Below, one piece after another: positions 2,021 to 5,206 of a stretch of 45,984 nucleotides of DNA. The stretch is from an uncultured Acidimicrobiia bacterium (lineage in GTDB: Bacteria; Actinomycetota; Acidimicrobiia; Acidimicrobiales; CAIXPF01), in contig CAIXPF010000031.1 in the NCBI GenBank assembly GCA_903921205.1, positions 1-45,984 on the forward strand, written 5' to 3'. The translations under genes were made by a program, and so were the position numbers. Below the pieces are notes generated by a model. The model did no database searches and had not been told where the DNA came from. It worked only from the letters and a program-made list of their open reading frames with translations. How positions within the stretch are numbered: the first letter of the stretch is position 1; each line of letters opens with the position of its first letter.

Positions 2021-2443
2021 TCAGCCCGCCGCTGACCAACCCTGCCAGGTCGTGATCTCGATGGCCACCACCGGGCCCTGCGGCGGGTTCGACCGGTACT
2101 GCGGGTAACGAGCCTGCAACGCGTCGCCACCGAACCCGGCCGGCCGGACCGTCGCCAAGCCCCGAGCCCGTACCCACCACAGGGTCTCCCAGTCGCCGTC
2201 GTCCCGATGGTCGAACAGCACCGTGACCGACGGGCGGCGCTCGATGTTGGCCAGCCGTGCCAGTCGGGTCGTGGACTTCGGCTTGTGGTCGACCGCGCTG
2301 ACCAAGAGGTCGCCGGACGACCCGGCGAGCAAGGCGAACGTGATCGGGACGAGGTCGGCGGCCCCGTTCGGGCCCAGCGTGGCGAGGACCGCGAACCTGG
2401 CCGTCGCGGCGTACCTGCGGCACTGATCGGGTTCGAGGCGCAT
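2021..2443 (-). CDS. PPOX-class F420-type oxidoreductase (TIGR03668-like)
   Basis: A 140-residue split-barrel flavin/F420-binding protein. MRLEPDQCRRYAATARFAVLAT is the usual start of the family, followed by GAADLVPITFAL, the VDHKPKSTTRLARLANI strand-helix segment (residues about 50-68) and a C-terminal WWVRARGLA...YPQY. Such proteins bind F420 or a flavin and reduce small substrates or act in redox protection; the substrate is unknown. Start 2443 is chosen because upstream residues are Arg-rich out-of-frame-like sequence and because TAACGT (2452-2457) ends 8 nt before it, as expected of a leaderless actinobacterial promoter. Divergent from the Sec-containing gene, 41 bp away. Confidence 0.8.
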   Translation of the reverse strand: MRLEPDQCRRYAATARFAVLATLGPNGAADLVPITFALLAGSSGDLLVSAVDHKPKSTTRLARLANIERRPSVTVLFDHRDDGDWETLWWVRARGLATVRPAGFGGDALQARYPQYRSNPPQGPVVAIEITTWQGWSAAG

Positions 2444-2451
2444 CGGACCCG

Positions 2452-2478
2452 ACGTTAGGCCACTGCGCTGGGTAACTT
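2452..2478. promoter_or_regulatory. Back-to-back -10 elements of a divergent promoter
   Basis: TAACGT (minus strand, 2452-2457) lies 8 nt before the PPOX start. TAACTT (plus strand, 2473-2478) lies 6 nt before the GTG of the selenoprotein gene. Neither gene has a convincing Shine-Dalgarno site, so both transcripts are probably leaderless. Confidence 0.5.
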
Positions 2479-2484
2479 CTGGCC

Positions 2485-3579
2485 GTGCTGCTCGACGACC
2501 TGATGCCCACCACCGCCGCATTCGCCGCCGCGACCGGTTGGAAGATCGAATCACGGGGTGCCTGCAAGGGCGACCTGTGCGTACCGCTGCCGGACGGGGC
2601 ATACCGCGAGGAACGGGTCGACGTCGCCGTCGTGGCCGAACGGCTCGGTATGGCCGTCGTGCCGGCCGAGAGTGGCGGTCTGTGGGCGGTCGGTCCGGAG
2701 TCCTTCAGCGGCCGGGCGCTGTCCACCGTGGCCGCACCCGACCTCGAGCTGCAGACCTTCGACGGACAGCCCTTCTCGCTCTCGTCGCTGCGCGGAACCA
2801 GGATGGTGCTCGTCGCCTGGGCCCCCTATTGAGGCTGCGCCCGTGACCTGCCAGGTTGGCAGGCCCTGCGCGCCGAGGTCGCCCCGCTCGGGGTCGAGAT
2901 CGTCACCGTCTGCCTCGAGACCCTCGGAGCTGCCGAAGGCCTGCCCTTCGTCGAGGCGGCCCGACCCGAACATCCGACGCTGCTCGACGTGGCCCACCAG
3001 GTCGATGCGGCCTTCGGCGTGGTGAACATCCCGAACGCGGTGTGGATCGACGAGAACTTCGACATCGTCCGCCCGGCCGAGCCGGCATGGCCGGCCCCGC
3101 GGGCGACCGGGGTGCGCTCACCGCTGCTGGACTCCGACCAGGCCCGTCTCGCCGCCATTGCCGGCCAGGCGACCAAGATCGTGTCGTGGACCGCCGACGA
3201 GTACGGCGACGCCGTACGGGACTGGGCCCGCAACGGCGCAGCCTCGCACTACGTCCTGCCGGCCGACGACGTGCTGGCCCGTTCGGGTCGCCGCGACGGC
3301 AACGGGTCCGCCGCAGCGGCGCACTTCGCCCTGGCCCAGCACTTCGAGCGGGACGGCCGTCACGACCGGGCCCTGCCGCATTTCCGGGCCGCCCACCGTC
3401 TCGCACCCGAGAACTGGACCTACAAGCGCCAGGCCTGGAGCCTGACCGGGCCGGAGGGGCCGCTCAAGCGCTTCTGGCAGGGCCCGCAGGACGGCCAGGA
3501 GTGGGAGTACGACAGCGACTGGCTGGCCGACATCGAGAGCTCCGGAGCCGAGACGTACTATCGACCCACGCAACTCTGA
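2485..3579 (+). CDS. ResA/redoxin-like selenoprotein (WAPY-U-GC), with in-frame UGA
   Basis: One gene of 364 residues if TGA 2830-2832 is read as selenocysteine (residue 116); otherwise it splits into a 115-residue piece and a 3' remnant. The frame is open and protein-like on both sides. Upstream is a thioredoxin-type lead-in (LELQTFDGQPFSLSSLRGTRMVLVAWAPY). Downstream is GCARDLPGWQALRAEV, a strand-helix region and the cis-proline loop NIPNAVWID (P183). Sec116 sits where redoxins keep their peroxidatic Cys, with C118 as a possible partner. The N-terminal third carries C27 and C32; the C-terminal part (about 270-310) looks like a single TPR-type helix pair. A SECIS-like hairpin follows the UGA. 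GTG 2485 has a -10 element 6 nt upstream. The Nudix gene follows after 2 nt. A ResA-like family with Sec members is, to my recollection, known; the substrate is not. Confidence 0.88.
2833..2874 (+). promoter_or_regulatory. Bacterial SECIS-like element after the UGA of the ResA-like gene
   Basis: Directly after the UGA is a lower stem (GGC-U-GCGC 2833-2840 with GCGC-GCC 2868-2874, one bulged U) and an apical stem (CCTGCCA 2847-2853 with TGGCAGG 2857-2863). The apical loop is GGT (2854-2856), the loop sequence found in the E. coli fdhF SECIS. The loop lies 21 nt after the UGA, within the range known for bacterial SelB-dependent elements. Confidence 0.8.
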
Positions 3580-3581
3580 CC

Positions 3582-4115
3582 GTGGGCGTGCCCTATCGCC
3601 CCATCGTGGGCACCCTGGCCTACGTGTGGGACCGAGCCGCCGACGTGGTGCTCCTGGTGCATCGCAACGCCCGTCCCCACGACGAGCACCTCGGCAAGTA
3701 CAACGGGCTCGGGGGCAAGCTCGAGGCCGACGAGGACGTGGTCAGCAGCGTGCAGCGCGAACTGCGCGAGGAAGCGGCGATCGAGCTCACGTCCTTCGTG
3801 CTGCGCGGCACGATCAGCTGGCCGGGCTTCGGCGCCAACGGCGAGGACTGGCTCGGCTTCGTGTTCCTCGTCGACGGCTGGAACGGGCAGATCCCTGCGG
3901 CCAACGACGAGGGTACCCTGTCATGGGTGCCACGTCGCCGTCTGCTCGAGGCCTGCCACGACGACCCTGCCGTTCGCGCCGCAGCGGCGTTGCCGATGTG
4001 GGAGGGCGACCGGCACTTCCTGCCGATGGTCTTCGACGAGGACCCGCGCCCGTTCTGGGGCGTGATGCCCTACGTTGACGGCAAGCCCGCGGACTGGCGT
4101 TACTGCCGGGCCTGA
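3582..4115 (+). CDS. Nudix hydrolase (MutT/8-oxo-dGTPase-like)
   Basis: A 177-residue Nudix protein. The box GX5EX7REUXEEX(G)U is seen at residues 45-67 (GKLEADE...RELREEAAI), with Ala in place of the last Gly. It is preceded by LGKYNGLGGK and followed by GTISWPGFG...GFVFLVDGW and WVPRRRLLE, the layout of 8-oxo-dGTP/nucleotide diphosphatases of the MutT/MTH1 type. C-terminal FDEDPRPFWGVMPYVDG is also typical. GTG 3582 begins 2 nt after the selenoprotein stop, so the two are probably co-transcribed; a second GTG at 3588 is possible. A nucleotide-sanitising role beside a thiol/selenol oxidoreductase would fit oxidative-stress defence, but that link is inference. The 3' end overlaps the convergent EamA gene by 16 nt. 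Confidence 0.85.
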   Translation: MGVPYRPIVGTLAYVWDRAADVVLLVHRNARPHDEHLGKYNGLGGKLEADEDVVSSVQRELREEAAIELTSFVLRGTISWPGFGANGEDWLGFVFLVDGWNGQIPAANDEGTLSWVPRRRLLEACHDDPAVRAAAALPMWEGDRHFLPMVFDEDPRPFWGVMPYVDGKPADWRYCRA

Positions 4116-5206
4116 ACGACCGGCGCCGGCGTGGCGTCCACGTCGCCGCCGGGATCCTCGGCCGGTGAACCGGCGACCGCGGTCGCCGCGGTCGCCGCGC
4201 CCACCTTGGCAGCCGGACGGCTGATCACTGCGGCGACAGCGCCGAGCACCACCAGACCGCCGAGCATCTGCACCACGGTCAGCGGCTCGTGATGGATCGG
4301 CCAGGCCGCCATGACCGCAACCACGTTCATCGACAGCAGGTACAACGACGCCTTCGAGGCATCGATGTGACGCAACACCCAGGCCATCAGCACGTGGCCC
4401 ACGATGCCGGTGACGATGATGGCCCACGCCAGCCACAGCCAGTCGCGGCCGCCGAGCTTGCCGAACCCCGCCAGAGGCTCGGTCAGCAACAGCAGCGGGG
4501 TGACCGTGACGGCCGAGAAGATGGTGACCCCGGCCATCCAGCTGAGGGCGTCGATCGGCTCGGTGGCCTTCGCCCGGGCGACCCGGGTCAGCAGGAAATA
4601 GCCCGTGAAGGACAGCATCGCGCCCACCGACAGGGCGATGCCCACCGTCGACGTGCGCATGGCAGAACCGGCGCCCAGGATCACCAGCACCGCCCCGCCG
4701 ACGCCGACCGCGGTCCAGCTGCGATGCCACCACGTCGCCCGTTCGCCGAGCAACGGACCGGCCACGACGAGGACCACCCCGGGCTGCAGCGCCGACATCA
4801 CCGACAGCGTGGCGATCGAGGCATGGTGGAACGCCGAGAACACCAGGCACATGTTCAGCCCGAACACCACCCCGGCCGGCGCGGTGAGGCGCAGCAGACG
4901 CCAGCTCAGGCGATGACCGGTGGCGTACATCCACGTCAGCAGCAACGGCACCGACAACCACAACCGGCTGGACGCGGTGATCAACGCCGGGGCAGTGATC
5001 AGCTTGGAGATCGGCGGACCCATCCCCCAGGCCAGCACGACGCCGACCATGGCCAGCCCGGCGAGCAGCGCCGTGGACGGCCGGGCCCGGCCGGACCCGG
5101 CTGCGGAGGCCGACGCGGCAAGCTCGTCGCTGTCTGCATCAGGGCGTTGCGCCGCAGCCAGGGATCGTTCGGATCGGTTCGGCACCGGACCAGCCTGCCA
5201 GGACAC
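4100..5206 (-). CDS. EamA-family (drug/metabolite) membrane transporter
   Basis: A 368-residue protein with a hydrophilic Ser/Ala-rich N-terminus (about 45 residues), then about ten membrane helices in two EamA repeats. Each repeat has the characteristic end: ASIATLSVMSALQPGVVLVVAGPLLGE in the first, and ASKASLYLLSMNVVAVMAAWPIHHEPLT in the second. A polar Ala-rich tail follows. The family exports metabolites or amino acids; the substrate is unknown. It is the last gene of a compact minus-strand run (18 nt after the CoA transferase) and may export a product of that pathway. Confidence 0.85.
   Translation of the reverse strand: MSWQAGPVPNRSERSLAAAQRPDADSDELAASASAAGSGRARPSTALLAGLAMVGVVLAWGMGPPISKLITAPALITASSRLWLSVPLLLTWMYATGHRLSWRLLRLTAPAGVVFGLNMCLVFSAFHHASIATLSVMSALQPGVVLVVAGPLLGERATWWHRSWTAVGVGGAVLVILGAGSAMRTSTVGIALSVGAMLSFTGYFLLTRVARAKATEPIDALSWMAGVTIFSAVTVTPLLLLTEPLAGFGKLGGRDWLWLAWAIIVTGIVGHVLMAWVLRHIDASKASLYLLSMNVVAVMAAWPIHHEPLTVVQMLGGLVVLGAVAAVISRPAAKVGAATAATAVAGSPAEDPGGDVDATPAPVVQARQ

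Follow-up and report, generated by a model that had tools for sequence, protein, structure and literature searches.

A CxxC active site is characteristic of ResA, which, like TlpA and StoA, is a thiol-disulfide oxidoreductase with a redoxin domain. Selenoproteins that carry selenocysteine (Sec, U) in a U-G-C motif within an AhpC-TSA/TlpA domain, like the protein described here, are also in print: the Global Ocean Sampling survey (PMC2398784) counted in its samples 46 selenoproteins and 855 Cys homologs of a type listed as "Prx-like (UGC-containing)" (pfam00578), a UGC-containing Prx-like protein is given in PMC9312934, and a UGC-containing TlpA disulfide reductase family protein is given in PMC13188914. 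In addition, NCBIfam holds a curated equivalog model, NF041054.1 (WAxxUGC_long, "ResA-like WAxxUGC motif-containing protein"). Judging from motif and domain, the published proteins would appear to belong to the NF041054 family; the string NF041054 is absent from the text of PMC13188914, and no experimental study of the WAxxUGC/NF041054 family was found in a limited open-access literature search.

The locus analyzed herein lies in a contig of 45,984 nucleotides from an uncultured Acidimicrobiia bacterium, the whole of which is referred to as the window. Its relevant features are as follows.

2485..3579, + strand: predicted WAxxUGC-type selenoprotein gene, 364 residues with Sec116
2485..2724, + strand: N-terminal region, residues 1-80, with the Cys pair C27-x4-C32, conserved across the aligned relatives
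2731..3057, + strand: AhpC-TSA/TlpA-ResA-type redoxin domain, residues 83-191 (PF00578, E 1.9e-11)
2830..2832, + strand: in-frame UGA, residue 116, predicted to be read as selenocysteine
2847..2863, + strand: SECIS-like apical hairpin with a six-pair stem CCUGCC/GGCAGG, the tip A-GG-U and an unpaired U at 2857
3313..3414, + strand: weak TPR-like stretch, residues 277-310 (PF07719, TPR_2, E 5.2e-5)
3582..4115, + strand: Nudix hydrolase gene (PF00293, E 2.5e-12), starting 2 nt past the selenoprotein stop

The interval 2485-3579 formed a single frame of 364 codons with an internal TGA as codon 116 and a terminal UGA. GTG 2485 was the earliest start codon in the ORF listing, three codons past a stop, and the two congeneric genes started at the same place, with GTG (L009) and ATG (L010). 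The dN/dS ratios before the UGA were 0.172 and 0.143 for the window gene against L009 and L010, and 0.150 between the latter two; the corresponding values after the UGA were 0.118, 0.105 and 0.097. These ratios indicated that purifying selection acts on both sides of the UGA and that the downstream part is kept as protein, in agreement with an earlier note on this DNA, made from the letters alone, which had described the frame as open and protein-like across the TGA. The note had also placed the UGA at the active site of a redoxin fold, in the motif WAPY-U-GC with U116 and C118, and this assignment was reproduced, as were the intact cis-Pro loop downstream (N181-I-P183) and the Cys pair C27/C32.

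The full-length product scored 457.1 bits with NF041054 against a cut-off of 300, residues 2-362 aligning with model positions 2-352 of 354, and it carried the family motif as WAPYUGC at the in-frame TGA. No difference from the family was found, apart from many relatives having WASW or WSPY where the window protein has WAPY before Sec. Because the family is already curated and proteins of this kind are in print, the gene does not represent a new kind but is a further member of a catalogued protein family. The designation "ResA-like" adopted in the earlier note holds at the level of the domain: the Pfam Redoxin model also matched (E 1.8e-6), phmmer matched the protein to solved TlpA and ResA chains, and Sec occupies the column of the first Cys of the ResA/TlpA/StoA enzymes. 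The protein is nevertheless not a ResA, because its motif is UxC (U-G-C) rather than CxxC; it further differs from those enzymes in its extra N-terminal C-x4-C and C-terminal regions, and the ResA model NF002854 gave just 39.2 bits against a cut-off of 170. As for the TPR-like C-terminal region proposed in the note, a stretch was indeed found, but it was weak (23.5 bits against a cut-off of 27 for PF07719), and the Pfam TPR models matching residues 271-313 were all under their cut-offs. An AlphaFold model built from four sequences had a mean pLDDT of 45.5, too poor for use.

Relatives were compared by a pattern scan of 93 loci, in which the position of the UGA column was left free. This position was occupied by U in 73 and by C in 17 of the 90 matching loci, and by no other residue, so that the earlier prediction of Cys or Sec at residue 116 among homologs was borne out. 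The three loci without a match either begin past the UGA column (L036 and L039) or are frame-broken there (L035). After removal of duplicates (L029, identical to the window; L102, which is gene L037; and L092 and L094, equated with L009 and L010), 70 distinct UGA rows from many genera and 16 distinct Cys rows remained, the rows being the loci taken for alignment, a subset of the matches found. Among the UGA rows, 64 were over the NF041054 cut-off and six under it (L038, L040-L042, L119 and L120), whereas all 16 Cys rows were under it. The conservation of G-C after the free position, of an aromatic residue at the W125 column and of N-[V/I]-P downstream is partly due to selection, because the pattern demanded them; P123, D168, W187 and E190, among other residues that the pattern did not require, were identical in all 70 UGA rows. 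C27 and C32 were each present in 69 of the 70 UGA-form rows and in 16/16 Cys-form rows.

The family was over its cut-off in 67 of 397 genomes of the order, and exactly one in-frame TGA was present in each of the 84 over-cut-off matches from these 67 genomes, as counted from the listing. Among 396 genomes drawn from the phylum, 13 had a match over the cut-off, six belonging to the window's order (its own genome included) and seven to other classes; 12 of the 13 rows passing alone had one TGA, and the thirteenth, L035, was frame-broken at the active site. This last member (G237:C1:2560989-2562026), split across frames in a single-contig genome, may represent assembly indels or decay, and the same genome holds another family copy with one TGA and one TAG. 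Neither a genome of the same genus (G528, 88% complete) nor one of the same family (G552) had an NF041054 match at E 1e-40. Outside the phylum, a Rhodospirillales member (L011) carried the UGA and scored just over the cut-off (308.9 against 300). A scan of named genomes, reaching close relatives only, returned three relatives, and no relative was confirmed in a viral sequence collection.

In a protein tree of 86 rows, all 16 Cys rows fell inside one clade of 20, together with the UGA rows L038 and L040-L042, and Sec/Cys exchange took four changes, three of them forced, all in this sister clade. Since the Cys rows are under the cut-off and in the sister clade, the exchange was seen in the wider family and not inside the long form, of which no Cys member was present among the rows examined. 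More distant TlpA-like proteins (L045-L052) had Cys at the UGA column. A distant redoxin relative, L044 (G248:C63:3745-4077), had a UGA in FSSW-U-TC, UxC but not UGC, and is possibly another selenoprotein form.

The earlier note had further described a hairpin with a GGU apical loop right after the UGA. The window sequence there reads CCUGCC-AGGUU-GGCAGG, and when positions are numbered from the U of the UGA, the stem joins 18-23 with 29-34. The GGU loop was recovered in the structure drawn by RNAfold, in which A2853 (position 24) pairs with U2857 (position 28) around a GGU triloop; across the relatives, however, the conserved partner of 2853 was the base at 2856 (position 27) and not 2857. 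Position 28 was U in 70/70 UGA rows, and both forms of the tip can be drawn only in rows with A24. Like the E. coli fdhF SECIS, the hairpin combines a small apical loop containing G-G or G-U with an unpaired U; in fdhF this U is bulged on the 5' side, whereas the invariant U of the present hairpin follows the tip on the 3' side. The bacterial SECIS model described in PMC13188914 comprises an apical loop of 3-9 nt, an upper stem of 4-16 bp, a distance of 16-37 nt from UGA to loop and an MFE of at most -7.5 kcal/mol, the loop having G in its first two positions and mostly the form N1-G-[G/U]-N-N2 with N1 and N2 paired. The window hairpin is in agreement with this model, having a six- or seven-pair stem and, 20 or 21 nt after the UGA, a loop AGGUU or GGU. 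At gathering scores, Rfam had no match in the window.

Folding energy was rejected as evidence for the SECIS. The segment 2830-2880 folded at -23.9 kcal/mol and the hairpin alone at -11.5 kcal/mol, but the former value was unremarkable for GC-rich DNA (z -1.07, with 29 of 200 shuffles equally stable), and z was -1.88 for the isolated 23-nt stretch and 0.38 for 41 nt; for L011, RNAfold favoured a different fold. What speaks for a role of the hairpin is instead its covariation across the aligned genes. The tip pair (24 with 27) links the third bases of two successive codons, the first for Pro and the second for Gly or Val, so that the amino acids do not force the pairing. It was nonetheless Watson-Crick in 69 of the 70 rows (C-G in 56, G-C in seven and A-U in six), the exception being A-G in L060, whereas 46.9 such pairs were expected from the columns, and none of 20000 permutations gave as many. 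Among 1185 pairs of third codon positions in the gene that are separated by no more than four codons, the tip pair ranked first with an excess of 22.1, the runner-up reaching 14.7. On the protein tree, which still includes the columns under the hairpin, G-C required seven changes (five forced) and A-U four (all four forced, as judged by starred branches), and the swaps are therefore not one inherited event. Other compensations occurred in four rows that have U-A instead of C-G at 19-33, and in L040, which has G-C at 19-33 and C-G at 21-31 with changed amino acids; the stem was broken at 19-33 in L091 (G-G) and at 18-34 in L041 (G-A). Standard pairs filled 99.4% of the pair cells, as against 30-60% when one side was slid by 1 to 3 positions. 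The five-pair stem was whole in 69/70 UGA rows but in 7/16 Cys rows, and the stem together with the tip pair in 68/70 and 4/16, respectively.

This covariation bears on the possibility that the UGA codes for some residue other than Sec, or is passed by plain readthrough without a SECIS. We found no evidence in support of this explanation and consider it very improbable: the hairpin covaries, the relatives without UGA carry Cys, not Trp, at the column, and TGA also terminates the window gene and the genes of its two congeners.

The genome containing the window was found to encode the machinery for selenocysteine, the absence of which would, according to the earlier note, have refuted the selenoprotein reading. 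Profile searches detected selA (397.8 bits), selB (280.7 bits) and selD (344.3 bits), all over their cut-offs, and a tRNA-Sec scoring 66.2 bits against a cut-off of 47, which ARAGORN called as SeC with tca. The selA and selB matches were 1.4 kb apart on the same contig, and the selenoprotein gene, tRNA-Sec, selA/selB and selD were distributed over four of the 208 contigs of the assembly. An in-frame UGA was also present in SelD itself (L021, contig C67), in the stretch SHGAGUACK, and in a formate-dehydrogenase-like gene (L121, C169:2985-4856; 630 bits, under the model cut-off of 666), in the stretch CNRTUHAP, making these the second and third predicted selenoproteins of the genome; both UGA positions are presumably the usual Sec sites of the two families. 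tRNA-Sec was found in 31 of 32 UGA-form genomes, the lone miss being 80% complete (G454), and in three of 16 Cys-form genomes, one of these with a 73-nt match of 50 bits, a contrast that is a comparison of two clades. Two Cys-form genomes (G519 and G433) keep a full-length tRNA-Sec match, which may reflect other selenoproteins or a recent replacement by Cys.

The alternative that the TGA arose by recent nonsense mutation in a pseudogene, or by a sequencing or assembly error in a Cys codon (TGC/TGT), might draw on its being one base from TGC and on the Cys-form relatives in the sister clade. We regard it as extremely improbable, since this TGA is shared by 70 distinct rows spanning many genera, a codon conservation that refutes it, and since dN/dS is as low after the UGA as before it and tRNA-Sec is present in nearly all UGA-form genomes. 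Although open reading frames for two separate proteins, a 115-residue product and a restart at GTG 2989, do exist mechanically, this explanation is scarcely credible, as the split would run through the active site of the redoxin domain, a single family model spans residues 2-362, and the frame runs through that place without interruption in the 16 Cys-form relatives.

The neighbouring genes were also considered. Because only 2 nt separate the Nudix gene from the stop, the co-transcription suggested in the earlier note is plausible, but no functional link is indicated, because a Nudix box was found in none of the 64 other UGA loci (of 67) with at least 200 nt downstream; the box was seen only behind the window gene, L009 and L010, by a strict pattern from which divergent boxes could escape. 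The Nudix neighbour thus looks local to the genus, and it was set aside as a functional partner. The upstream gene, running in the opposite direction (ORF 2021-2602), is PNPOx-like (PF01243, E 1.7e-8, the match beginning at residue 59 of the ORF), and the interval 2300-4200 showed nothing resembling a promoter or terminator.

The reading that we prefer, with a probability of about 0.96, is that 2485-3579 is a bacterial selenoprotein gene of the NF041054 family, encoding a thioredoxin-fold oxidoreductase with SelB-dependent Sec at residue 116. The single 364-residue selenoprotein postulated in the earlier note is supported by the machinery, the Cys relatives, the covarying hairpin and the family match, and we strongly infer from these sequence comparisons that the UGA is decoded as selenocysteine in the cell. 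In the proposed mechanism, SelB with Sec-tRNA(UCA) would recognize the hairpin just past the UGA, leading to insertion of selenocysteine at residue 116. The product would then act on its substrate as a thiol/disulfide or peroxide oxidoreductase, with the selenol of Sec116 as the probable nucleophile and Cys118 as the putative resolving residue, and the N-terminal C27/C32 pair may pass electrons to or from the Sec116 site.

The locus provides a clean positive case in which a selenocysteine UGA was called by eye from raw sequence and then backed by machinery, Cys relatives and SECIS covariation. The wobble-pair test, resting on two third-codon bases that pair in 69/70 rows, is hardly affected by constraint on the amino acids, and may be of use in settings such as GC-rich genomes, in which folding energy is not very informative. 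For the family, we tentatively raise the idea, which at present we consider rather unlikely, that the long form could be a selenoenzyme type of its own in several Actinomycetota families, combining the UxC site with a fused N-terminal C-x4-C relay, with Sec kept throughout, in contrast to repeated switching between Sec and Cys in its sister clade.
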